Of a stretch of 64,000 bases of DNA, positions 26,980 through 38,986 are shown in pieces. Below the pieces are notes generated by a model. That model did no database searches. It had not been told where the DNA came from and was given only the letters and a program-made list of their open reading frames with translations. The position numbers and the translations under genes were made by a program. The DNA comes from Cupriavidus taiwanensis. Lineage in GTDB: Bacteria; Pseudomonadota; Gammaproteobacteria; Burkholderiales; Burkholderiaceae. How positions within the stretch are numbered: position 1 is the stretch's first letter; each line of letters starts with the position of its first letter. The DNA lies in assembly GCF_900250115.1 (NCBI RefSeq), contig NZ_LT984804.1:1007301-1071300 (forward strand), read 5' to 3'.

Positions 26980-27914
26980 TGAAGCGCATCTGCATCAGCG
27001 AGTTCATGGACCCGGCCGCGGTGCAGGCGCTGAGCGCCGGCTTCGACCTGCGCTACGAGCCGGGCTGGGTCGATCGCCGCGGCGAGCTGCTCGAGATCCT
27101 GGACGGGGCGCACGCGCTGGTGGTGCGCAACCGCACCCAGGTGGACGCGGCGCTGCTGGCGAGCGCGCCGGCCTTGCGGGTGGTGGGGCGGCTCGGCGTC
27201 GGGCTGGACAATATCGACGTCGCCGCCTGCCGTGATCGCGGCATCCGCGTGATTCCCGCCGCTGGCGCCAATGCGCGCTCGGTGGCGGAATACGTGGTGA
27301 CCACGGCCGCCGTGCTGCTGCGCGGCGCCTATCTGTCCAGCGCCGAGGTGGCGGACGGCCAGTGGCCGCGTGCCAGGCTGTCGGAGGGCAGGGAGGCGCT
27401 GGGCAAGACGCTGGGCCTGATCGGGTTTGGCGACATCGGCCGCCACACCGCGGCGCTTGCGCGCGCCTTCGGCATGTCGGTGATCGCCTGCGATCCGATG
27501 CTGCCGGCCGACGATCCGGTCTGGTCCGCCACCGGCGTGGCCTGCGTGCCGCTCGATGCGCTGCTGGCGCAGGCCGACGCGGTCAGCCTGCACGTGCCGC
27601 TCGTCGCGGCGACGCGCAACCTGATCGATGTCGGCCGCCTCGCGGCGATGAAGTCCGGCGCGGTGCTGATCAATACCGCGCGCGGCGGCGTGGTCGATGA
27701 GGCGGCGCTGGCCGACGCGCTGCGGGCCGGGCACCTGGCCGGCGCCGCGCTGGACGTGTTCGACAGCGAGCCCCTGGCCGCGGGCAGCGCGCTGCAGGGC
27801 GTGCCCAACCTGATCCTGACGCCGCATGTGGGCGGCGTGACGCGCGAAGCCAATGCGCGCGTATCGATGATGATTGCGCGCGAGGTGCGGCAAGCGCTGG
27901 AGCAGATGCCATGA
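26976..27914 (+). CDS. slcC: D-2-hydroxyacid dehydrogenase, (S)-sulfolactate dehydrogenase-like
   Basis: A 312-residue enzyme of the phosphoglycerate dehydrogenase family. The Rossmann motif is [14 protein letters not shown], followed by [14 protein letters not shown] with the catalytic arginine region and [12 protein letters not shown] with the active-site histidine. It overlaps suyB by four bases and the next dehydrogenase by four bases. Together with the ComC-like neighbour it matches the pair SlcC/ComC that racemises sulfolactate through sulfopyruvate so that only the R form reaches SuyAB. The sulfolactate assignment rests on context. A second start codon at 26979 is possible. Confidence 0.82.
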
Positions 27915-28933
27915 GCCGGATTGCGTTGCAGGAACTGGAGCGCGTGGCCGCCGCGGGCCTGCGTCGGGCCGGGGCCAGCGCCCTGCAGGCCGGGGCCACG
28001 GCGGCGGCGCTGGTGCGGGCCGATGCCGCGGGTCTGCCGTCGCACGGGGTCTCGCGCGTGCCGATGTACGTGGCACACCTGCGCCATGACCGCGTCGACG
28101 GCAACGCCGAACCGACGCTGCAGGGCACGCGCGCCAGCGCCGTGCTGGTCGACGCGCGCTGCGGCTTTGCCTTCGCGGCGTGCGACCTGGCCATCGCCGA
28201 GGCCGTGGCGCGCGCGCGCGCAAGCGGCGTCGGCGTGGCCGCGGTCACCAACAGCCACCACTTCGGCGCCGCCGCGCTGCCGCTGGACGCCGTGGCGCGC
28301 GCCGGCATGGTCGGCATCGCCATGGGCAATTCGCCCGCCGCCATGCCGGCGTGGGGTGGCAAGCGGCCGCTGTTCGGCACCAACCCGATTGCCGCGGCAT
28401 TCCCGCGCCAGGGCCACGCGCCGGTGGTGATCGACCTGTCGCTGTCGGAAGTCGCGCGCGGCAAGATCATGGTGGCGGCGAAGCAGGGCAAGCCGATTCC
28501 GCCCGGATGGGCGCTGGATGAGGCCGGCCAGCCGACCACCGACGCCCAGGCCGCGCTGCGCGGCTCGATGCTGCCGGCGGGCGGCGTCAAGGGCGCGATG
28601 CTGGCGTTGCTGGTGGAACTGCTGGTGACGTCGCTGGCCGGGGCGCAGTTCGGCGCCGAGGCCGATTCCTTCTTCAGCGATGCCGGCAACCGTCCGCGCA
28701 TCGGCCAGCTGTTTTTCGTGCTCGACCCGGGCGCCTTCGCCGGCTCGCAGGTCTACGCCGCGCGCGTCGAAGCGCTGCTGGCGGCGATGCTGGCAGACGA
28801 GGGCACGCGCCTGCCCGGCGCCCGCCGCGAAACCGCGCAGGCGCACGCAGCCGCGTGCGGCGTCGAGGTGCCCGACGGGCTATGGCGCGAACTGCAATCG
28901 CTTGCGGGCGTGGAGGTCGGCGCGCCGCACTGA
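27911..28933 (+). CDS. comC: Malate/lactate dehydrogenase family, (R)-sulfolactate dehydrogenase-like
   Basis: A 340-residue member of the Ldh2/malate dehydrogenase (non-Rossmann) family. LPSHGVSRVPMYV, NSHHFGAAALPLD and FGTNPIAAAFPR are the expected substrate and cofactor segments. ComC is a (R)-sulfolactate:NAD(P) oxidoreductase known from coenzyme M synthesis and from bacterial sulfolactate degradation. Here it follows an SlcC-like gene with a four-base overlap and precedes a Bug receptor. A lactate or ureidoglycolate dehydrogenase of the same family is the alternative if the cluster handles another acid. Confidence 0.82.
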   Translation: MSRIALQELERVAAAGLRRAGASALQAGATAAALVRADAAGLPSHGVSRVPMYVAHLRHDRVDGNAEPTLQGTRASAVLVDARCGFAFAACDLAIAEAVARARASGVGVAAVTNSHHFGAAALPLDAVARAGMVGIAMGNSPAAMPAWGGKRPLFGTNPIAAAFPRQGHAPVVIDLSLSEVARGKIMVAAKQGKPIPPGWALDEAGQPTTDAQAALRGSMLPAGGVKGAMLALLVELLVTSLAGAQFGAEADSFFSDAGNRPRIGQLFFVLDPGAFAGSQVYAARVEALLAAMLADEGTRLPGARRETAQAHAAACGVEVPDGLWRELQSLAGVEVGAPH

Positions 28934-28989
28934 TTTCCTCACCACGGACCCACGCCAGATGGGCCGGCCACAATTACCGGAGACAAACC

Positions 28990-30012
28990 ATGGATAGACG
29001 CTTGATGTGCGGCGCGCGCAGGCAACTGAACCGCGTGCTGCTAGCCTTGTCAGTTGTATCGGCCTTCGCCGCGCTGGCGCCCCGGCCCGCCGCCGCGCAG
29101 GACGGCAACGATGCCGCGGCCGCTGACTATCCGGGCAAGCCGATCCGGTACGTGGTGCCGTTCGCTGCCGGCGGCCTGACCGACATCATGGCGCGCATGG
29201 TCGGCCACCAGCTCTCCGAAGAATGGAAGAAGCCCATCGTGGTGGACAACCGCCCCGGCGGCAATGCCAACATCGGCGCCGAGCAGGTCGCCAAGGCCCC
29301 GCCCGACGGCTACACCTGGCTGGCGGTCACGCTGACGCACGCGTCCAACGTGACCCTGTTTCCCAGGCTGCCGTTCAGCATGCAGAAGGACCTGGTGCCG
29401 GTGGCGCGCATCGCCTCGTCGCCGATGATGGTGGTGGTGCCGGCCAGCTCGCCGATCAAGTCGATGAAAGACCTGGCCGCGGCGGCGCAGAAGTCGAAGC
29501 TCAACGCCGGCTCGAGCGGCAACGGCACCCCGCCGCACCTGACCCTGGCCCTGTTCGAAAGCCAGACCCGCACCAGCTTTACCCATGTGCCGTACAAGGG
29601 CGGGGCGCCGTCGATGACCGACCTGATCGGCGGCCAGATCGACGTGGTCTTCTCCAACTTTCCCGAGTCGCTTGCCTATGTGAAAGGCGGCAAGCTGCGC
29701 GCGCTGGCCGTGACCACGCGCGAGCGCCATCCGCTGCTGCCCGACGTGCCCACCGTGGCCGAGGCCGGCTATCCGGAACTGATCGTCGAGAACTGGACCG
29801 GCCTGATGATGCCGGCCGGCACGCCCCGGCCGATCGTCGACAAGGTGGCCGCCGCGGTCGCGCGCATGCTGTCCGCCGAGTCGGTGCGCGGGCGCATCGT
29901 TGCCGCCGGCTTCAGTCCCGCGGCCGGCGCGACGCCCTTCGCCGATTACTTCAGCGGCGAGGTGACGCGCTGGGCCCGGCTGATCGAGGAGAAGCACATC
30001 CGGGTCGAATAG
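28990..30012 (+). CDS. Bug/TctC-family receptor, candidate sulfolactate binding protein
   Basis: A 340-residue periplasmic receptor with a signal peptide (cleavage near PAAAQ, residue 37) and the motifs VVPFAAGGLTDIMARMV, NRPGGNANIGAEQVAKAPPDGYT and VPYKGGAPS. GGAGACA at 28979-28985 sets the start. Sulfolactate degraders are known to use tripartite tricarboxylate transporters (SlcHFG) with such a receptor, so this may be an SlcH-like protein. The membrane subunits are not in the window. It is the last gene of the suy-slc operon. Confidence 0.85.
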   Translation: MDRRLMCGARRQLNRVLLALSVVSAFAALAPRPAAAQDGNDAAAADYPGKPIRYVVPFAAGGLTDIMARMVGHQLSEEWKKPIVVDNRPGGNANIGAEQVAKAPPDGYTWLAVTLTHASNVTLFPRLPFSMQKDLVPVARIASSPMMVVVPASSPIKSMKDLAAAAQKSKLNAGSSGNGTPPHLTLALFESQTRTSFTHVPYKGGAPSMTDLIGGQIDVVFSNFPESLAYVKGGKLRALAVTTRERHPLLPDVPTVAEAGYPELIVENWTGLMMPAGTPRPIVDKVAAAVARMLSAESVRGRIVAAGFSPAAGATPFADYFSGEVTRWARLIEEKHIRVE

Positions 30013-30940: not shown

Positions 30941-31798
30941 TCAGGCGCCGTCGACCATGCGCAGCACCGCGGCCGCCAGGGCGCCATTGGGGGCACCCAG
31001 CAGGTCCACTGCATCGAAATGATGGCCGCGCTCCTGCACCACCACCTGCACGTCGAAGCCGCATTCGGCCAGCAGCGCCTGGTATTCGCGCTGCAGCCGG
31101 TGGTATTCGGGCGATTCATCGCCGCCGACGGTCAGGATCATGGGCAGCTTGATTTGCGGCACATGGTGGATCGGACTGTAGCGGGCGACGTCCGTCGTGG
31201 TCAGCCCGACTACCTGGTTCAGATAGCACAGCCGGATGGGCTCCAGGTCATACAAGCCGCTGATCGCGCATCCACCCTTGAGGATCTCCGCCGGTACGCC
31301 GAAGGACGCCCAGTCCGTTCCCGCCAGCGTGGCGGTGAGATGACCGCCGGCCGAATGGCCGGACACGAAGATGCGGTGCGGGTCGAATCCCAGTTCGGCA
31401 GCATGGCGGAAGAGCCAGGCCACCGCCTCCTGATTGTCGCGGACGATCTCCGCCATGCCCACCTCCGGCGCGAGGCGGTAGTTCACCACTGCCACGTTGA
31501 TATCGCGCTGCAGGTATGGCGCGGCAATGAAGCTGAAGTCGGATTTGTCCAGCGATTGCCAGTAGCCGCCATGAATGAAGACCAGCAGCGGACGCTCACG
31601 GGTGGTCGTTGGGAAGAAGTCCAGTGATTGCTTGGGGTGCTCGCCATAGGCAAGATCCGGCTTGACCGGATGCTGGCGACGGAACGCGGCGCTGCTGTCG
31701 TTCCATCGCTGGAAGATGTCCTGGAACCCGGGGATTCCCGCCCTGACGTTGTACTGCTTGTCCAGTTCTTCCTGATTGAAGTTTCGATACACTGACAT
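30941..31798 (-). CDS. Alpha/beta hydrolase, kynurenine formamidase-like
   Basis: A 285-residue alpha/beta hydrolase. The oxyanion motif HGGYW (residues 76-80) is characteristic of arylformamidase and related esterases; the nucleophile elbow is GHSAGG with S149. The acid and histidine appear in GGDESPEYHR and RGHHFDA. The ATG at 31798 is the first start after a palindromic intergenic region shared with a divergent AraC gene. Kynurenine genes are absent here, so it probably hydrolyses an amide, formamide or ester formed in the uncharacterised pathway of its neighbours (RidA, PurA-like ligase, flavin protein). Confidence 0.85.
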   Translation of the reverse strand: MSVYRNFNQEELDKQYNVRAGIPGFQDIFQRWNDSSAAFRRQHPVKPDLAYGEHPKQSLDFFPTTTRERPLLVFIHGGYWQSLDKSDFSFIAAPYLQRDINVAVVNYRLAPEVGMAEIVRDNQEAVAWLFRHAAELGFDPHRIFVSGHSAGGHLTATLAGTDWASFGVPAEILKGGCAISGLYDLEPIRLCYLNQVVGLTTTDVARYSPIHHVPQIKLPMILTVGGDESPEYHRLQREYQALLAECGFDVQVVVQERGHHFDAVDLLGAPNGALAAAVLRMVDGA

Positions 31799-31817
31799 TA
31801 CATTGGCTCCAGACTGT

Positions 31818-31837
31818 GGAATCGATGCTTCGATTCC
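31818..31837. promoter_or_regulatory. Palindrome in hydrolase/araC intergenic region
   Basis: GGAATCGA, spacer TGCT, TCGATTCC form a perfect 20-bp dyad 20 bases upstream of the hydrolase start and 99 bases before the AraC-type start. A second, shorter dyad (GCGAC-GCTT-GTCGC, 31850-31863) follows with centres 29 bases apart. They are candidate regulator sites for both genes. Confidence 0.5.
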
Positions 31838-31935
31838 GTGGGGGTCGTTGCGACGCTTGTCGCGTCCGGCCAAAGATACGCATCCGCGCCTTGCCGCGTG
31901 CGCCGCCAGATGACAACCCCTATCGCAAAGACGCC

Positions 31936-32721
31936 ATGTACGGAAAGAGCGAGAACCGCGACGACTACCAGGCGATAGACCGGCCGGTCGGTGGCATGGC
32001 GCGCAAGCTGAAGGATGGCTTCTATATCGCCGCGCATTCACATCCGCGCGGCCAGCTGATCTATGCCTATGTGGGAGCCATCCTGGTCACCACCGACTTT
32101 GGCTCCTGGGTGGTGCCGCCGCAGCGCGCGGTCTGGGTGCCCAGCAACGTCGAACACGCCATGCAGGCGTGCGGAGACGTCGAGATGCGGACGGTCTATG
32201 TCCGCGAGGATGCCGTTCCCGCGGAGTTGCAGGGCTGTTGCGTGGTGGCGGTGCCGCCGCTGCTGCGCGAGCTGATCTCGGCCGCCGTGCGCATGCCGAT
32301 AGCGTACGAGGAAAGCAGCCGCGACGGCCTGGTGGTGCAGCTTCTGCTGCAAGAGCTGCGGCCGCTGTCGGTGGTCCCGCTGCATCTGCCAATGCCCAAG
32401 GATCCACGGCTGGGCAAGATCTGCGCGAAGATCCTCGAGGATCCCTCGGACGAGACCTCGGTGCAGGCGTGGAGCCGCTCGGTTGGCGCCAGCGAAAGGA
32501 CCATCATCCGCCTGTTTCCGGAAGAAACTGGCATGACCTACAGCCGCTGGAAGCAGCAGGCCCGGCTGATGGCGGCGGTCCGCCTGCTTGCCGAGGGCTG
32601 CCATGTCACCGACATCGCGCTGCAACTCGGATACGAAAGTCCAAGCGCATTCAGCGCCATGTTCAGGCGGGCGCTTGGCATGACTCCCACCGAATATTTC
32701 CGGGACCGGACCGGCGATTAG
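31936..32721 (+). CDS. AraC-family transcriptional regulator with cupin domain
   Basis: A 261-residue regulator. The N-terminal half has a cupin-like sensor (HSHPRGQLIYAYVGAILV, VPPQRAVWVPSNVEHAM) and the C-terminal half two helix-turn-helix motifs, the second being VTDIALQLGYESPSAFSAMFRRALGMTPTEYF. The start is uncertain: ATG at 31936 gives a typical N-terminus, while the open frame reaches 31816 through sequence without coding character. It is divergent from the hydrolase and precedes the RidA, PurA-like and flavin genes, so it probably governs the whole group. Confidence 0.87.
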   Translation: MYGKSENRDDYQAIDRPVGGMARKLKDGFYIAAHSHPRGQLIYAYVGAILVTTDFGSWVVPPQRAVWVPSNVEHAMQACGDVEMRTVYVREDAVPAELQGCCVVAVPPLLRELISAAVRMPIAYEESSRDGLVVQLLLQELRPLSVVPLHLPMPKDPRLGKICAKILEDPSDETSVQAWSRSVGASERTIIRLFPEETGMTYSRWKQQARLMAAVRLLAEGCHVTDIALQLGYESPSAFSAMFRRALGMTPTEYFRDRTGD

Positions 32722-32869
32722 GCGTCTTCCCTTCGGGTTGGCATCTGCGCGACATTACGTGGCGTCAAGGCGCGGACCGAGGCCAGGGCCGTGCGGCACA
32801 GTCTGGGTGTCGCCGGATGGCCAGCACCGTGCTTGCCCCGTCGGCATTTGTCCAAGTCGAGGAGTGAGT

Positions 32870-33334
32870 ATGTCAGTGATGGAGCGTATCCACGCGGCGG
32901 GCATCGTCCTGCCTGGTGCCGAGATGCCCAAGGCGCTTTATGTCCCGTACACGCAGCACCGTGGGTTGCTGACGATATCGGGACAGCTGCCGCTGCATAA
33001 CGGCAAGCCGGTGTTTGTCGGGAAGGTGCCCGGCGCGGTCAGCGTCGAGGCAGCGCAGGAGGCGGCTCGGCTTTGCCTGACCAACCTGCTGGGCTGGGTG
33101 GCCGTTGCGGTCGAGGGCGATTTCGAAAGGATCCGGGGCGTGGTGCGGTTAGGCGGCTACGTCGCTGCCGACCCAGGCTTCAACGATGCACCGCTGGTGA
33201 TCAACGCCGCGTCGGAACTGCTCAACCGGATCTTCGCCGAGCGCGGGCGCCATGCCCGCCTGGCGCTCGGCGTGGCGAGCCTTCCGTTCGGCGCCCCGGT
33301 GGAGATCGAGGCAACCTTTGCGCTGGACGCCTAG
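32870..33334 (+). CDS. RidA family protein (YjgF/UK114-like)
   Basis: A 154-residue RidA-type protein. YTQHRGLLTISGQLP is the N-terminal part of the fold and the C-terminal signature is GRHARLALGVASLPFGAPVEIEATF, with the conserved arginine of imine deaminases. GAGGAG precedes the ATG at 32870. RidA proteins hydrolyse reactive enamine or imine intermediates; the subgroup with RGVVRLGGYVAADPGF is often found in catabolic operons. It ends three bases before the PurA-like gene and is therefore part of the same transcript. It may clear an enamine released in this pathway. Confidence 0.88.
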   Translation: MSVMERIHAAGIVLPGAEMPKALYVPYTQHRGLLTISGQLPLHNGKPVFVGKVPGAVSVEAAQEAARLCLTNLLGWVAVAVEGDFERIRGVVRLGGYVAADPGFNDAPLVINAASELLNRIFAERGRHARLALGVASLPFGAPVEIEATFALDA

Positions 33335-33337
33335 GCC

Positions 33338-34714
33338 ATGGGCGCCGCGACAAAGGCCGGCTACGCCGACGTCCTGGTGGGCCTGCAATATGGCGATGAG
33401 GGCAAGGCCCGGGTCGTTGATCACCTCGCCGCCGGGTATGACGTAATTGCGCGCTTCAACGGCGGGGCCAACGCCGGGCATACCATCGCATCGGCTGCCG
33501 GTGCGCTGCGGCTTAGGCAAGTGCCTTCCGGCGTGCTGCACCCCGGCGTTGCGCTCTACATCGGCTCTGGCTGCGTGGTCGGGTTGCAGCAGCTGGCATC
33601 CGAGATTGCGATGCTGGCGGCCCAGGGTATCAGCCTGGAGGGACGACTGACAATTAGCGACAGGTGCCCGCTGGTTCAGCCGCGTCACGTGCTGGCGGAC
33701 CGCCGCGATGGCGCACGGATCGGCACCACCGGAAACGGCATCGGTCCGTGCTACGCCGATCTGGCGACCCGGATGCGGGGCGCCGAACGTGTTGCGTTCC
33801 AGTTGCGTGACCTGCGGTGCGACGAGGAACGCGTGTTCGAATCGATGGCCCGACTGGCCGGGCAAGAAGATGACAATGGCGAGGGCATCGCGGCGATGGT
33901 GGAGGGCATGCGTCGCGCGTGGACTGTGGTTCGGCCGTTCGTGACGGACGATGCTCTCGCGCTGTTGCGGCGGGTCGAGGCCGGTGCAAGGGTACTGTTC
34001 GAAGGCGCGCAGTCGGTGATGCTGGATGTGGTGCATGGTGTCCAGCCGTGGGTCACGTCAAGCCATACGCTTCCCGCCTACGCCTACGTGGGCGGAGATC
34101 TGCCGTGCCGGTATCACCGCAAGTCCATCGGCGTGGCCAAGGCCATCGTCTCCCGGGTCGGCTCCGGCCCGCTGCCTACCGAATTGGGCGGGCCGCGCTC
34201 CGACGCCTACTGCACCGCGGCGGCACACGCGGGCCGCGGCCGCGCCGACGAAGCGGCCAGCCACGATCCGCTGGCCTTGCTCGCCGAAGCGGATGCGTTC
34301 GCGACGGGCGTCGCCATCCGGATGCTGGCCAACGAGTACGGCACCGGCACCGGTCGGCCACGGCGCGTGGGTCTGCTTGACGTTGCACAGCTGCGGCTCG
34401 CGATACAGCAGGCCGGCGTCGACGAGGTGTATCTGAACAAATGCGACAGCCTGGCCGCCTTCTTCCACACGCCGGAACGCTGCATTCCGGTCGTGGTCGT
34501 CGAGGCCGACGGCGTACGCCAGCGCGTGTTGCGATTTCCGGCGTTTGCGCAGGACGCCATGCCGGCCGATGCCGGATCGCCGCTGCCCCCGCAGCTTGAA
34601 GCGTTGCTCGAGTGGATGGCGCAGGCTATCGGCCGGCCCTTGCGCGGCATCGGACTAGGGCCGGAACGCGCTCAGATGCGGCTTCTTGAACCCACCCAGC
34701 AGACCACACCATGA
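33338..34714 (+). CDS. Divergent adenylosuccinate synthetase-like ligase (PurA paralogue)
   Basis: A 458-residue protein related over its full length to adenylosuccinate synthetase, which joins IMP and aspartate using GTP. Retained are D20 and K23 of the phosphate loop, N45 and H48 (NAGHT), T130-T131-G132, Q225, T240 and the amino-acid loop TGTGR-P-R (336-342). Changed are the loop itself (GKGK in the family, GKAR here at 22-25), N133 in place of the usual arginine, and NKCD (367-370) in place of TKLD. It overlaps the flavin-protein gene by four bases. I infer a ligase with altered nucleotide or acceptor use, not the housekeeping purA. Confidence 0.85.
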   Translation: MGAATKAGYADVLVGLQYGDEGKARVVDHLAAGYDVIARFNGGANAGHTIASAAGALRLRQVPSGVLHPGVALYIGSGCVVGLQQLASEIAMLAAQGISLEGRLTISDRCPLVQPRHVLADRRDGARIGTTGNGIGPCYADLATRMRGAERVAFQLRDLRCDEERVFESMARLAGQEDDNGEGIAAMVEGMRRAWTVVRPFVTDDALALLRRVEAGARVLFEGAQSVMLDVVHGVQPWVTSSHTLPAYAYVGGDLPCRYHRKSIGVAKAIVSRVGSGPLPTELGGPRSDAYCTAAAHAGRGRADEAASHDPLALLAEADAFATGVAIRMLANEYGTGTGRPRRVGLLDVAQLRLAIQQAGVDEVYLNKCDSLAAFFHTPERCIPVVVVEADGVRQRVLRFPAFAQDAMPADAGSPLPPQLEALLEWMAQAIGRPLRGIGLGPERAQMRLLEPTQQTTP

Positions 34715-35337
34715 CAAGTAAAACCCCTGCCTACCTGCGCAGCGAGATGCGCAGGACCGACCTGGCCTGGACCGACTGGCCGGCCATCGAAGCCTTCCTG
34801 AAGGATGAGCTGATCTGCCGCGTTGCTGTGCATGATGCACCGTACCCGTATGTCACGGCGCAGAGCTTTACCTTCACCGGCGATGCGTTCCTGATCCACA
34901 GCTCGAGATTCGGCAAGCTCGCCGCCGCGATCCGGGCGCACCCGCTGGTCACGATCGAAATCGATCGGCCCGTGGCCTTGCTGAAAGCGCCGAAGGGCCA
35001 GAACACCAGCCTCGAGTACTTCAGCGTCATCGCACGCTGTGAAGTCCGGCTGCGTGACAGTACCGATGAGGTGCGTGCCCACCAGTACCAGGCGCTGGAC
35101 AAGTTCCGCCCCGAGAAAGACTACTCGCCGATCGAGGATGGCGCGGCCAGCCAGATCGTTGCCTATCGCTGCGAGATCCGCGAGATGAGCGCGAAGAAGC
35201 GCATCCTGGCCGACGGCCAGTACTCGCCGCCAGGGCAGCCGCGCGCGCCGTACCTGCGCTATCCGTTTCAGTCCGGCGCGACGCTGTCCGGCCTGCCGCC
35301 GGAAGCGTTCGATCCCCACCGGTTCGAGGCGAAGTAG
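34711..35337 (+). CDS. Pyridoxamine 5'-phosphate oxidase-family (FMN split-barrel) protein
   Basis: A 208-residue protein of the flavin split-barrel superfamily. The N-terminal segment MRRTDLAWTDWPAIEAFLKDE, then VTAQSFTFTGDAFLIHSSRFGKLAAAIRAHPLVTIEID, resemble the NimA/pyridoxamine oxidase-like group. It most likely binds FMN and acts as a reductase or oxidase on a small nitrogenous compound. It starts four bases inside the PurA-like gene and ends just before a strong terminator, so it is the last gene of the RidA operon. The flavin-binding role is from family knowledge; the reaction is unknown. Confidence 0.8.
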   Translation: MTSKTPAYLRSEMRRTDLAWTDWPAIEAFLKDELICRVAVHDAPYPYVTAQSFTFTGDAFLIHSSRFGKLAAAIRAHPLVTIEIDRPVALLKAPKGQNTSLEYFSVIARCEVRLRDSTDEVRAHQYQALDKFRPEKDYSPIEDGAASQIVAYRCEIREMSAKKRILADGQYSPPGQPRAPYLRYPFQSGATLSGLPPEAFDPHRFEAK

Positions 35338-35358
35338 GGCTCGCCATCGCATGGCGTG

Positions 35359-35387
35359 AAGAGGTGCTTCGGCACCTCTTTTTTTTT
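35359..35387 (+). terminator. Rho-independent terminator after the RidA-PurA-flavin operon
   Basis: AAGAGGTGC, loop TTCG, GCACCTCTT followed by a run of nine T residues in total. It lies 22 bases after the stop of the flavin gene and is the clearest terminator in the window. It separates this operon from the transporter at 36042. Confidence 0.9.
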
Positions 35388-35475
35388 GAGGGTTCATTGC
35401 TGAATGTCGGGGGATGATGACGGTGCGCGCGGATTGATGCGGTTGACTTCGTGGATGCGCCGGCCCTCACCCCCG

Positions 35476-35501
35476 CCCCTCTCCCGCAAGCGGGAGAGGG
35501 G
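35476..35501. repeat. GC-rich intergenic palindrome (REP-like)
   Basis: A perfect 12-bp inverted repeat (CCCCTCTCCCGC, AA, then its complement) preceded by a C-rich tract. Palindromes of this sequence are common between genes in Ralstonia/Cupriavidus-type genomes (from memory). It may act as a bidirectional terminator or be a copy of a dispersed element. Confidence 0.7.
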
Positions 35502-35964
35502 AGAAAACAGGCAGGAAGGAAATCGCTGTCGGAATCGCCAGCGACGACGCGCGCAGCGCAGCCGAAGGCGTCCACCGATAACGCAGTCGGCAGGCGGCCA
35601 CCGACCTAAAGTCGGGTTCGTCCATCCGACCTCGAACGCCAGGCACCTCCAGGTAGCGTCAGCAGGGTCGAACCGGCAACCGCCGGACCGCAAGTCACCA
35701 CCGCCGGAACCACCAACGCCGCCTTGGCCAGCCGCCCAGGCAACGCCATTCTTCTGCGTGCTCTTCTGTCGCTTGGTCAAAAGAGCAAGTCGCCGGCTAC
35801 GCCGGCGAAACAGCCGCGCCCGCCAAGCACGAAAAACAATCCAACCGCAGTACCCCAGCCCAACCGACGCGACGTCCCTGCAACTCCGGCCAATGCCTTG
35901 GCGCCTGCGAGACAGACCTTGGCGTTCGGGCGCGCGTCGTGCAAGCGGCCGCAGGCGACATTAG

Positions 35965-35994
35965 TGAGCGATAGCGCAACCACGTGTTATCGCT
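35965..35994. promoter_or_regulatory. Inverted repeat upstream of the major facilitator gene
   Basis: GAGCGATA, 14-base spacer, TATCGCTC. The half-sites are about two helical turns apart, and the element ends 47 bases before the transporter start, so it could be a regulator site. The protein that binds it is unknown. Confidence 0.4.
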
Positions 35995-36041
35995 CGCCGC
36001 CCGTGCCATAGAGCACTGGCACTAGAACGACTGGAGACAAG

Positions 36042-37484
36042 ATGAAGCACACCCCTCTCGAGCTGATGCGCGTGCGCACCGGCGACCGGCTGGAAAGGCT
36101 GCCCGTATGCGGGTATCACCGCCTTCTGTTTGCAATCATTGCGCTGGCCTTCTTCTTCGACAATCTTGACCTGGCCATGATGACGTACTTGCTAGGCTCG
36201 ATACGCACGGAATTCGGATTGACCGCTGCGCAGGCGGGCATGCTGGGGAGCGCCAGCTTTGTCGGCATGGCCATCGGCGCGCTCAGTTCGGGGATGCTTG
36301 CCGACAGGTTCGGTCGCAAGCCCGTGTTCCAGGTCAGCATGATCATCTGGGGCGTGGGCAGCTATCTCTGTTCCACCGCGAGCAACCCCATGGAACTGGG
36401 CGCATATCGGCTATTGCTCGGCATCGGCATGGGCATGGAGCTGCCGTTGGCACAGACGCTGATGTCGGAGTTCATCCCCGCGCGGCAGCGCGGCAAGTAC
36501 CTGGCATTGATGGACGGCAACTGGCCGATCGCGTTTATCTGCGCCGGCCTGATGTCGTACTACGTGCTGAGCGCCTATACCTGGCGCACGATGTTCCTGC
36601 TCGGCGCGGTGCCGGCGCTCTTCCTGATCGTGGTCCGGCGCTTCGTGCCCGAGTCGCCGCGCTGGCTCGAATCGCAGGGGCGCCATGCGGAAGCGGGCGC
36701 GATCGTCGAACGTATCGAGCAGTCGGTGATGCGGCGGATGAAACTTGACGCATTGCCGGAAGTCACCCCGGCCGTTGCAGCGGCGGAGCCGGCCGCATCG
36801 GGGCTGCGCGTGCTGTGGTCCCGCGCGTACCGCAGCCGGACCCTGACTGTCTGGGGGCTGTGGTTCTTCGCCCTGCTGGGGTTCTATGGCCTGAATACGT
36901 GGATTGGCGCGTTGCTGCAGCAGTCTGGCCTGGGCGTGACCAAGTCCGTGCTGTACACGGTGTATATCTCGATCGGTGGGATTCCGGGCTTTCTGTGGGC
37001 GGCGTGGGCGGTGGAGCGCTGGGGGCGCAAGCCTGCCTGTGTGGCGACGCTGGTCGGCGGAGCCTGCATGGTCTTCATCTATGGCCGGGTCGCCGGCTCG
37101 GCGCCGGAGCCGCTGGCGCTGTTCCTTTCCGGCGGAATGATGCAGTTCTTCATGTTCGGCATGTGGGCGGTGCTCTATACCTACACGCCGGAGCTATATC
37201 CCACGCGTGCCCGCGCCTCGGGCTGCGGCATGGCTTCGACCGTCGGGCGCATCGGCTCGCTGCTGGGGCCGGCGCTGGTGGGACTGGTGCTTCCCGTCGC
37301 CGGGCAGGCTGGCGTGTTCTGTCTTGGCGCGCTGTGTTTCCTTGCGGCGGCGGCGATCGTATTCCGCTTCGGCATCGAGACCCGCGGCAGGGCGCTGGAG
37401 ACCATCGCGGGCCTGTCAGTTTTTTTGTGTGCAGGGCAGGTAAAGGCTCACCGTCGATGGAACGGTGAGCCAGCAATATCTTAA
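36042..37484 (+). CDS. MFS transporter (AAHS-like), C-terminal tail replaced by an IS insertion
   Basis: A permease with twelve predicted membrane segments. FFFDNLDLAMMTYLLGSI in helix 1 and ADRFGRKPVF after helix 2 place it with the aromatic acid:H+ symporter or sugar-porter-like facilitators. GGAGACA (36033-36039) sets the start. The frame now ends in an insertion sequence: after ALETIA the last residues are encoded by the left end of the element, giving 480 residues. Joining the flanks of the insertion at the target duplication gives ALETIAD and a TAG stop, an original protein of 457 residues. Transport may still work because only the tail changed. It probably serves the upstream RidA/PurA-like pathway. 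Confidence 0.85.
   Translation: MKHTPLELMRVRTGDRLERLPVCGYHRLLFAIIALAFFFDNLDLAMMTYLLGSIRTEFGLTAAQAGMLGSASFVGMAIGALSSGMLADRFGRKPVFQVSMIIWGVGSYLCSTASNPMELGAYRLLLGIGMGMELPLAQTLMSEFIPARQRGKYLALMDGNWPIAFICAGLMSYYVLSAYTWRTMFLLGAVPALFLIVVRRFVPESPRWLESQGRHAEAGAIVERIEQSVMRRMKLDALPEVTPAVAAAEPAASGLRVLWSRAYRSRTLTVWGLWFFALLGFYGLNTWIGALLQQSGLGVTKSVLYTVYISIGGIPGFLWAAWAVERWGRKPACVATLVGGACMVFIYGRVAGSAPEPLALFLSGGMMQFFMFGMWAVLYTYTPELYPTRARASGCGMASTVGRIGSLLGPALVGLVLPVAGQAGVFCLGALCFLAAAAIVFRFGIETRGRALETIAGLSVFLCAGQVKAHRRWNGEPAIS
37401..37408 (+). repeat. Left copy of 8-bp target-site duplication
   Basis: ACCATCGC immediately precedes the left terminal inverted repeat of the insertion sequence and is repeated at 38794-38801. 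Eight-base duplications are usual for IS256-family elements. Confidence 0.9.
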
Positions 37485-38793
37485 CGATAAGGGTGGGTGA
37501 AGCGTTCCTCGTAGAGGATCGCAAACTGGTTCATGGCAGCCTTCCAGTCATGGGTTGAACTGCCCCACTTCACCGTGATGTTTCGCAGCGCCAGCCACAG
37601 CAGCTTGGTCGCCGCCTCGTCGCTGGGGAAGTGACCGCGCGTCTTGATGATCTTGCGCAGCTGCGCGTTGATGCTCTCGATCGCGTTGGTCGTGTAAATG
37701 ATCTTGCGGATCGCCGGCGGGAACGTAAAGAACGGGATCACCTGATCCCAGGCGCGACGCCAGGATGCGCCGATCGGTGCATACCGCCGACCCCATTCCC
37801 CGTTCTCGAAGGCCGCCAACTCGGCCAGCGCGGCCTCGACCGTGGGGGCCGTGTACACGGGCTTGAGCGCCGCCGCCACGGCGCGGCGCTCCTTCCAGTT
37901 GGCGTACTCCAGGCTGTTGCGGATCAGATGCACGATGCAGGTCTGCAGGGTGGTGTTCGGGAACACCGCGGCCAGGGCCTGTTCCATGCCCTTAAGGCCA
38001 TCGGTCACCGCGATCAGGATGTCTTGGGTACCCCGGGTCTTCAGGTCGTTGAACACCTTCATCCAGAACTTGGCGCCTTCGGTAGTCTCGATCCACAGGC
38101 CCAGGATGTCGCGCGTGCCGTCGGGCAGCACGCCCAAGGCCAGGTAGACGGCCTTGTTGCGCACCACGCCGTCCTCGCGCATCTTGACCCGCAGCGCGTC
38201 GAAGAACACCACCGGGTACATCACCTCCAGCGGACGGGCCTGCCAGGCGGTGACCTCGTCCATGACCGCATCGGTCACCGAACTGATGAACTCGGGCGAG
38301 ACCTCGGTGCCGTACTGTTCGGCCAGAAACGCCTGGATCTCGCGCAAGGTCATGCCGCGCGCATACATGGCGATGATCTTGTCGTCGAACCCGGTGAAGC
38401 GCCGCTCGTGCTTGGGAATCAGGATCGGATCAAAGCTGCCGTCGCGATCGCGAGGGATGTCTAACCGCAGCGGCCCGTCGTCGGTCAGAACCGTCTTGGC
38501 GCTCTTGCCATTGCGCTGGTTGGCCGTGCCGGCCGGGCGCTCGGCGCCAGCCGGGTAGCCCAGATGATGGCCGAGCTCGGCCCCCAGGGCGCGCTCGATC
38601 AGGGCCTTCTTGAACGCCATCGAGGCGTCCTGCACCGCCTCGGCGGTCATCGGACCCTTAACGAAATGGGCAATCAGGTCCTCGGGAATGGTCGGCAGCT
38701 CACGGTCGGCGGCCTGGCTGGTCTTGGTTTTGCGTGGCATACATGCTCCTTGGCGACATGTTATGCCCTAAACACAAAATTTCTGACAGGTCC
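37409..38793 (-). mobile_element. IS256-family insertion sequence, complete (1385 bp)
   Basis: The element is bounded by 30-bp imperfect terminal inverted repeats (37409-37438 and 38764-38793) with 24 of 30 positions matching; they begin GGGCCTGTCAG and GGACCTGTCAG. It carries one intact transposase on the minus strand. The 8-bp direct repeat ACCATCGC on both sides marks the target site. The intact ends, intact transposase and identical duplications point to a recent insertion. It lies in the last codons of a major facilitator gene. Confidence 0.93.
37481..38740 (-). CDS. IS256-family transposase
   Basis: A 419-residue Mutator/IS256-type transposase. The N-terminal domain has LGAELGHHLGY, and the catalytic acidic residues lie in VVFFDALRVK, AVTDGLKGM and the NAIESINAQLRK segment near the C-terminus. 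CIVHLIRNSLEYA is another family signature. The gene is uninterrupted and fills nearly all of the element, with its start 53 bases inside the right end. It acts as a DDE recombinase on the element's own inverted repeats. Confidence 0.96.
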   Translation of the reverse strand: MPRKTKTSQAADRELPTIPEDLIAHFVKGPMTAEAVQDASMAFKKALIERALGAELGHHLGYPAGAERPAGTANQRNGKSAKTVLTDDGPLRLDIPRDRDGSFDPILIPKHERRFTGFDDKIIAMYARGMTLREIQAFLAEQYGTEVSPEFISSVTDAVMDEVTAWQARPLEVMYPVVFFDALRVKMREDGVVRNKAVYLALGVLPDGTRDILGLWIETTEGAKFWMKVFNDLKTRGTQDILIAVTDGLKGMEQALAAVFPNTTLQTCIVHLIRNSLEYANWKERRAVAAALKPVYTAPTVEAALAELAAFENGEWGRRYAPIGASWRRAWDQVIPFFTFPPAIRKIIYTTNAIESINAQLRKIIKTRGHFPSDEAATKLLWLALRNITVKWGSSTHDWKAAMNQFAILYEERFTHPYR

Positions 38794-38801
38794 ACCATCG
38801 C
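38794..38801 (+). repeat. Right copy of 8-bp target-site duplication
   Basis: ACCATCGC follows the right end of the insertion sequence. It restores the transporter's original reading frame: with the left flank it reads Thr-Ile-Ala-Asp-stop, the stop being TAG at 38806-38808. Confidence 0.9.
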
Positions 38802-38986
38802 CGACTAGGAGCGTCGTGCGGTGCACCACGCCCGCCGCACCAATTGGTGTCGATGCGGCAACAGTGTGGGCACCCTGGCGCGCCTACCGCTACGCATCCT
38901 CGCGCCCTACGATGGCTGCATGCGGCGGCACCGGATATACCGTGCCGCCGCATGCCTTCCACCATTGCATCGATCAAGGAGCCGCC

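Follow-up and report, generated by a model that had tools for sequence, protein, structure and literature searches.

A patchily distributed gene set of Burkholderiaceae, probably catabolic and co-regulated, with an optional and divergent paralogue of adenylosuccinate synthetase

Canonical adenylosuccinate synthetase (AdSS, PurA; PF00709) is a textbook purine enzyme, and a divergent paralogue of it, here named PurAL, is encoded in a set of six genes on contig 2 of a 7.0-Mb Cupriavidus genome (Cupriavidus taiwanensis, NZ_LT984804.1). The set lies in the 64,000-nucleotide stretch that was analysed as a whole and is called the window below. The other five genes code for an alpha/beta hydrolase (ABH), an AraC-family regulator, a Rid protein (RidA), a split-barrel protein and a transporter of the major facilitator superfamily (MFS), and the whole set is referred to as the unit. 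PurAL belongs to the same fold family as PurA and keeps its catalytic, IMP-site and aspartate-arginine residues, but has only 30% identity with PurA of Escherichia coli and 32% with that of the host, scores below the NCBIfam cut-offs and has an insert before the aspartate loop. PurZ of phages and archaea, which acts in 2-aminoadenine synthesis, is a member of the same superfamily, but its match to PurAL is far weaker (100 bits, against 281 for PRK01117), and for this reason the assignment of PurAL as PurZ was rejected.

The Rut operon, whose genes serve pyrimidine degradation, also combines a Rid protein, an ABH, a split-barrel protein and a transporter. The unit differs from it by its other split-barrel family, by the presence of AraC and PurAL and, as the preliminary description of this locus had noticed, by the lack of RutA and RutB, since no such family was found among the scanned unit proteins. 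The split-barrel protein shares its fold with Nim and with the haem split-barrel enzymes PaiB, KtzT/PipS and NohD, is Nim-like by sequence, and has 12-21% identity to these proteins in a fold search. Target isozymes that confer self-resistance are known in biosynthetic gene clusters (PMC12616698), and they are likewise second, divergent copies of an essential enzyme placed among genes that handle small molecules; in the unit, however, the isozyme is dispensable and its neighbours have the look of genes for import and catabolism. The chalkophomycin cluster has an AdSS gene at its flank (Table 1 of PMC11085572), and the passages of that paper on the alanosine cluster name no AdSS gene.

The explanation preferred here, although held tentatively, is that PurAL is a spare, perhaps inhibitor-tolerant AdSS that stands beside a catabolic route for an amino-acid-like compound antagonising AdSS. 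The presumed catabolic regulon is undescribed as far as the open-access literature was searched; no published description of the gene set was found there, subscription papers being mostly outside the search.

Conservation of the gene set and its common motif

A scan of a genome collection with PurAL as query gave 75 PurAL-type loci, and 21 of them are this unit according to tblastn of the neighbour genes. The hosts are Cupriavidus, Herminiimonas, Paraburkholderia, Pandoraea, Caballeronia and Pseudomonas typographi. All six genes were found in 20 of the 21 units, RidA and MFS of L024 in pieces only, and in the remaining unit (L022) the contig stops after PurAL. Because the set recurs across genera, the association of its genes goes beyond chance, and the earlier idea of an uncharacterised gene set that is conserved together is borne out. 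The P. typographi unit has ABH on the strand of the other genes, though at a distance from them. Flanking genes offered no clue to the pathway, as no flanking family is common to more than 4 of 24 loci.

Scans for the split-barrel gene gave hits in 16 of 60 Cupriavidus genomes and, across the family, in 30 of 398 genomes (31 loci). In even samples of the order (399 genomes) and of the phylum (398 genomes), the host was the one genome with a hit, and from these counts by genus, family, order and phylum the distribution of the unit is patchy and mainly restricted to Burkholderiaceae. The counts of the PurAL scan and of the split-barrel scan overlap; at least 10 of the stretches from genomes with G numbers belong to the same assemblies as loci with L numbers.

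On an annotated Caballeronia plasmid (L094) the unit is followed by genes for malic enzyme and a second Rid protein, and malic enzyme is present in both Caballeronia loci checked for it. A malic enzyme gene likewise lies downstream of PurAL in nine contigs, mostly of Peregrinibacteria, Peribacteria and Gracilibacteria (L059-L062, L064, L067, L068, L072, L078). Cupriavidus gilardii (L028, the same assembly as L121) and a related metagenome-assembled genome (MAG; L056) have a second ABH copy, split into two pieces in L028, downstream of MFS.

A TTGGCGTCTGCGCGACA-like motif is common to the upstream regions of up to 27 loci and, in the window, is present before all three transcription units of the set. 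The motif was seeded by eye and its matrix was trained on RidA and MFS upstream regions, those of the window included, while the ABH/AraC regions were kept out of the training and the Paracoccus locus described below was excluded from the counts. The best site is above the 99% shuffle level in 26 of 26 RidA regions and 24 of 25 MFS regions, all of which are training regions, and in 18 of the 25 untrained ABH/AraC regions. The three best sites of the window are the three sites of the unit (scores of at least 20.5; next 13.9), and a degenerate pattern fitted to them matches exactly nowhere else in the 7.0-Mb genome. With one mismatch allowed, the pattern has 3 matches elsewhere in the genome, against 1 in the control. 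A wider AraC regulon was rejected, as two of these three sites are inside open reading frames (ORFs) and none precedes a recognisably catabolic gene, the surrounding ORFs having been read by eye without a family search. The three transcription units are probably one regulon, and the AraC protein would be the one that binds the operator-like motif.

Relationships and occurrence of PurAL

Along with PurAL (314 bits), the host genome has a canonical purA that scores 592 bits, which rules out PurAL as its sole AdSS. PurAL matches PF00709 with 315 bits, above the gathering score, along profile positions 1-415 of 416, and stays below all five NCBIfam adenylosuccinate synthase cut-offs (for the purA equivalogs, 281 against 402 and 254 against 395.6 bits). 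An alignment was made of 34 canonical sequences (one of them a 10-residue stub), 23 PurALs of the unit, 23 cluster or actinobacterial PurALs and 29 other PurALs. Residues D13, K16, N38, H41, T129, R143, Q224, T239, R303, R305 and D333 are at least 95% conserved in each of the four groups; in the E. coli numbering assumed here, Asp13, His41 and Gln224 are taken to be catalytic and Asn38, Thr129, Arg143 and Thr239 to bind the IMP phosphate.

PurALs differ from canonical sequences by G17A, R131N, T300G, T330N and S414G. Positions 17, 330 and 414 presumably belong to the GTP site, the last two on its guanine side, and their change would suit an unlikely alternative in which PurAL, as a second AdSS, increases the adenylate supply or evades ppGpp or feedback control during expression of the operon, with no toxic substrate involved. 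Studies of ppGpp, GDP, GMP and AMP as inhibitors of AdSS (PMC6136348) also speak for this alternative, but it leaves the location of PurAL in a catabolic unit or in a diaminopropionate cluster unexplained. The spacing between E281 and E296 is 47-52 residues in PurALs against 0-22 in canonical sequences, with about 36 extra residues placed just before the aspartate loop. This loop corresponds to the hadacidin- and aspartate-binding loop 289-294 of Helicobacter pylori AdSS, whose aspartate-binding loop and contacts to IMP and GDP, as described in PMC11276676, were matched to the positions used here. Within the loop, Gly300 is found in 44 of 46 unit and cluster or actinobacterial PurALs, in 2 of 29 other PurALs and in none of the 33 canonical sequences with a letter at that position.

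In a tree of 82 proteins, PurALs of the unit form one clade (98/90) and the clade of Pandoraea and actinobacterial PurALs is its sister; both are nested in sequences of the type found in the candidate phyla radiation (CPR) and DPANN, and canonical PurA falls outside the PurAL group. Genes matching PF00709 were counted in 27 genomes, 14 of which carry PurALs that are neither of the unit nor cluster or actinobacterial. These 14 are mostly CPR/DPANN genomes and most are MAGs, possibly incomplete, and in 12 of them PurAL is the only PF00709 match; of the other two, one has four matches (three places and a fragment) and one has a canonical gene too. In four archaeal loci PurAL adjoins, or is close to, a gene for a PurB-type lyase. 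The retained residues, the position as sole AdSS in 12 of 14 genomes and the PurB neighbours in archaea indicate that PurAL most likely functions as an AdSS, in a form different from the canonical one. The preliminary description had set its unusual ligase against an ordinary adenylosuccinate synthetase, and the truth seems to be between the two, since PurAL is probably an AdSS, although one as divergent as the identities given above.

PurAL is not present in every unit. Among the 31 split-barrel loci, it is present in 24, absent from 6 (G030, G534, G679, one of two loci in G688, G777 and G808) and decayed in one (G762); in G046, which was counted as present, it is on another contig, and in the G777 stretch ABH and MFS were not found either. 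In a tree built from the other five unit proteins (30 loci), this pattern of absence and decay takes at least 7 changes. With tblastn, PurAL remnants were detected in G534 and G679, weakly in G808, and as large pieces in G762, and none was detected in the other three loci. Because remnants occur in 4 of the 7 loci without an intact PurAL, loss is likelier than gain. Intact PurAL is under selection, with ratios of nonsynonymous to synonymous substitution (dN/dS) of 0.14-0.22 in five comparisons; the ratios of AraC, split-barrel and MFS genes are 0.04-0.12, and those of ABH and Rid 0.10-0.29. Judged from its occurrence, PurAL is probably not a required step of the pathway.

Of the seven genomes in which a unit lacks PurAL or has it decayed, three have a different second AdSS, canonical in type (523-548 bits), which is divergent from a LysR gene and resembles one on a Burkholderia pyrrocinia plasmid. 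It is possibly another inducible spare AdSS, and it occurs in none of eight genomes with a PurAL-bearing unit. Such LysR-divergent second AdSS genes of canonical type were seen in Burkholderia, Cupriavidus and related genomes (L165, L166, L167, L095). Furthermore, G534 has another PurAL, and G688 has two PurALs, one of them in its other unit.

Candidate catabolic route and its possible substrate

On a plasmid of Paracoccus yeei, ABH, Rid, split-barrel and AraC proteins are kept at 49-58% identity and a three-gene TRAP transporter replaces MFS; PurAL and MFS were not found in this unit by tblastn. TRAP systems are importers, and because one of them stands in for MFS in Paracoccus, the unit probably serves import and catabolism. 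An early idea of MFS as an exporter was dropped given this replacement.

The three enzymes of the presumed route are recognised by distant relatives. ABH matches the PDB entries 9n8r (“Lipase 1”, 1.3e-48), 2pbl (7.3e-28) and 4e11 (kynurenine formamidase, 2.5e-19), so that kynurenine formamidase comes third, after two esterase or lipase entries. The structural model of the split-barrel protein, which belongs to Pfam Pyridox_ox_2, matches Nim proteins and, more weakly, NohD and piperazate synthases (E about 1e-4, TM-score about 0.5), which are haem enzymes that act on N-hydroxy amines. The Rid protein aligns with PA0814 and keeps the conserved Arg (Arg105 of RidA) and Glu, as read by eye in an alignment with the active PA0814, not with RidA itself. 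PA0814 is described as a Rid1 imine deaminase, as are the Rid1 proteins tested (PMC5619798), and the placement of the unit protein near Rid1 drew also on PMC4433059. Together, ABH, split-barrel and Rid proteins suggest a chemistry at an N-oxidised or amide nitrogen that ends in an imine.

The Pfam family of the split-barrel protein would also fit a unit acting on a vitamin B6-like or other aldehyde compound, as pyridoxal phosphate (PLP) inactivates AdSS at a lysine of the GTP site and is reported to inhibit the H. pylori enzyme through Lys322 (PMC11571797). This is highly improbable, since the equivalent lysine is kept in 22 of 23 unit PurALs and no B6-degradation gene is recognised in the unit.

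The compound can be guessed to be an N-oxygenated or N-formyl amino acid such as hadacidin, which is N-formyl-N-hydroxyglycine. In its specific form, by which the unit degrades hadacidin or a close relative and PurAL is a hadacidin-insensitive AdSS, the proposal is decidedly unlikely; along such a route, no less doubtful, ABH would remove formate, the split-barrel enzyme would dehydrate or reduce N-hydroxyglycine, and Rid would hydrolyse the imine to glyoxylate and ammonia. Hadacidin, made by Penicillium, inhibits AdSS competitively with aspartate, with a Ki of 0.19 uM in H. pylori (PMC6136348). The kinship of ABH to kynurenine formamidase, the weaker match of the split-barrel model to NohD, an N-hydroxylamine dehydratase, and to piperazate synthase, and the imine deaminase activity of Rid1 proteins agree with these steps, as does the lack of any clear further regulon member, which is expected for products that enter central metabolism. 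On the other hand, the best relatives of ABH are esterases, the weak fold match to NohD is common to flavin proteins too, and no report of such bacteria meeting or using hadacidin came up in an open-access literature search on this compound.

The sister clade of the unit PurALs gives a second context. In nineteen Pandoraea loci and one Kitasatospora locus, PurAL is inside a gene cluster that, in the annotated Pandoraea locus L040, codes for SbnA- and SbnB-type diaminopropionate enzymes (above cut-offs), an AurF-like N-oxygenase, an ornithine-type carbamoyltransferase, a threonine-synthase-like enzyme, a DAO-type oxidase, a flavin reductase and a LuxR regulator, and PurAL stands between SbnB and the AurF-like N-oxygenase. 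Each cluster family was found in 16 to 20 loci by ORF clustering, which can miss overlapping ORFs. In Kitasatospora the rest of the set is present, and flavin reductase and LuxR were not seen in the available stretch. The cluster loci are L036, L038, L040-L049, L053-L055, L083, L088-L090 and L093, and the Kitasatospora species is Kitasatospora phosalacinea. The product of the Pandoraea cluster may target AdSS.

The position in this cluster, where a biosynthetic role is possible, could also be read in favour of PurAL as a neofunctionalised ligase, which would keep the GTP and IMP-like sites and join another amino compound as a step of the pathway; scores below all NCBIfam cut-offs and Gly300 in the aspartate loop are compatible with it. 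It is nevertheless rather doubtful, because the catalytic and IMP-site residues and both arginines of the loop are conserved, PurAL was not found in the Paracoccus unit, and 7 of 31 units have it missing or decayed with most or all of the rest kept. The preliminary description had proposed that the PurA-like ligase conjugates the substrate, and as a required step this did not hold up: such a step is unlikely for a gene lost so often, and PurAL retains AdSS residues and has relatives that are the sole AdSS of their genomes. Residue conservation, optional presence and a lineage in common with a biosynthetic cluster are the grounds on which a spare target is preferred to a required ligase.

With PurAL as a spare AdSS, the AraC-type regulator would sense a small carboxylate-like compound and turn on the three transcription units, and MFS (TRAP in Paracoccus) would import the compound. 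Its degradation by ABH, the split-barrel enzyme and Rid would consist of amide or ester cleavage, redox reaction or dehydration at nitrogen, and imine hydrolysis by the Rid protein, perhaps in this order, and would yield metabolites usable by housekeeping enzymes. The compound or an intermediate would interfere with AdSS, and PurAL, if tolerant, would sustain AMP synthesis meanwhile; under weak exposure, or with another spare AdSS, PurAL would be lost.

Several observations weigh against this scheme. Motif scores are weak in 7 of the 25 ABH/AraC regions, in the Pseudomonas MFS region and in the Paracoccus locus, and confidence in the split-barrel model is moderate (pLDDT 67). Selection on PurAL is no looser than on ABH and Rid, so that its dN/dS does not single it out. 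Ordinary AdSS are variable at position 300 as well (T, V, N, S) and the fixed differences of PurAL are scattered over GTP, IMP and aspartate sites, so that tolerance to an aspartate analogue is not proven, and the conserved residues leave room for what may be a changed amino-acid partner. No intact spare AdSS is present in G777, which has the canonical gene only, or in G762, which has the canonical gene and a fragment. The association of PurAL absence with the LysR-divergent AdSS is small: G459 is the same assembly as G688 and holds both kinds of unit, and with this assembly counted both ways the figures are 3/6 against 0/8 (Fisher p = 0.055) or 3/7 against 0/7 (p = 0.19). Setting both Pandoraea genomes aside, a choice made after seeing the data, gives 3/5 against 0/8 (p = 0.035), and replacement of PurAL by a second AdSS is suggestive at best.

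Layout of the locus and meaning of the unit

The features of the locus are collected in the table.

Table. Features of the unit and its surroundings, in positions of the window
Feature	Position	Strand	Basis or remark
ABH, alpha/beta hydrolase, HGGYW-type	30941-31798	-	distant kin of small esterases and kynurenine formamidase
Operator-like site 3, ABH/AraC divergent region, ATGGCGTCTTTGCGATA	31921-31937	-	motif score and fitted pattern
AraC-family regulator, AraC_binding/cupin-type sensor domain	31936-32721	+	domain match
Operator-like site 1, upstream of RidA, TTGGCATCTGCGCGACA	32738-32754	+	motif score and fitted pattern
Rid protein (RidA)	32870-33334	+	nearest solved, named relative is the Rid1 protein PA0814
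PurAL, divergent AdSS paralogue	33338-34714	+	profile matches, alignment, tree
Split-barrel protein (Pyridox_ox_2), Nim-like, cofactor possibly flavin or haem	34711-35337	+	
Terminator-like stem with T run	35358-35381	+	terminator scan
Operator-like site 2, upstream of MFS, TTGGCGCCTGCGAGACA	35898-35914	+	motif score and fitted pattern
MFS transporter	36042-37484	+	native to ~37408; last 24 residues IS-derived
IS256-family insertion, later arrival, outside the unit	37409-38793	-	

The genes named in the preliminary description were found where it had placed them, with a gap of exactly 3 bp between RidA and PurAL and an overlap of exactly 4 bp (ATGA) between PurAL and the split-barrel gene. The strong terminator that it saw after these three genes is represented by a stem with a T run, in a scan that gave 10 terminator-like sites in 8 kb, against 4.6 in shuffles; the assignment therefore rests on the position 3' of the split-barrel gene and on the long T run. 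Since MFS lies past the terminator with its own operator-like site and ABH is divergent, the gene set forms three transcription units. The proposed single operon of 30941-38808 is accordingly retained as a co-occurring, probably co-regulated set, and its final 1.4 kb or so are an insertion sequence (IS) of the IS256 family. This element is flanked by an 8-bp target duplication, ACCATCGC, and is inserted in codon 456 of MFS, whose native length, judged by its relatives, is 457 codons; as a later insertion at the MFS end it was rejected as a member of the unit. It supplies the 24-residue foreign tail of the MFS in the window. The best NCBIfam match of MFS is an aromatic-acid/H+ symporter subfamily, below its cut-off.

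The GntR, TTT and Ldh genes upstream were rejected as members, because among the units just four closely related ones of Cupriavidus (L019-L022) have them. Near the unit, both the window (27911-30012) and the Paracoccus plasmid (L152, 1225-3427) code for an Ldh-family oxidoreductase and a TTT binding protein, with about 34% identity, and this is probably a coincidence because most units lack these genes.

The unit is a handle on a probable catabolic regulon and on another naturally occurring type of AdSS, which is seemingly the sole AdSS in candidate-phylum organisms. A target-protecting isozyme in a catabolic operon, if true, would be an uncommon arrangement and would direct genome miners to AdSS inhibitors. 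In its widest and rather speculative form, which is unlikely, the catabolic operon would feed on a natural AdSS inhibitor and carry a detachable tolerant AdSS, while the cluster lineage would, in Pandoraea and Kitasatospora, protect the producer of a diaminopropionate-derived, N-oxygenated AdSS inhibitor. If this were true, eater and maker would share one resistance lineage, descended from the AdSS type of candidate-phylum bacteria and archaea.

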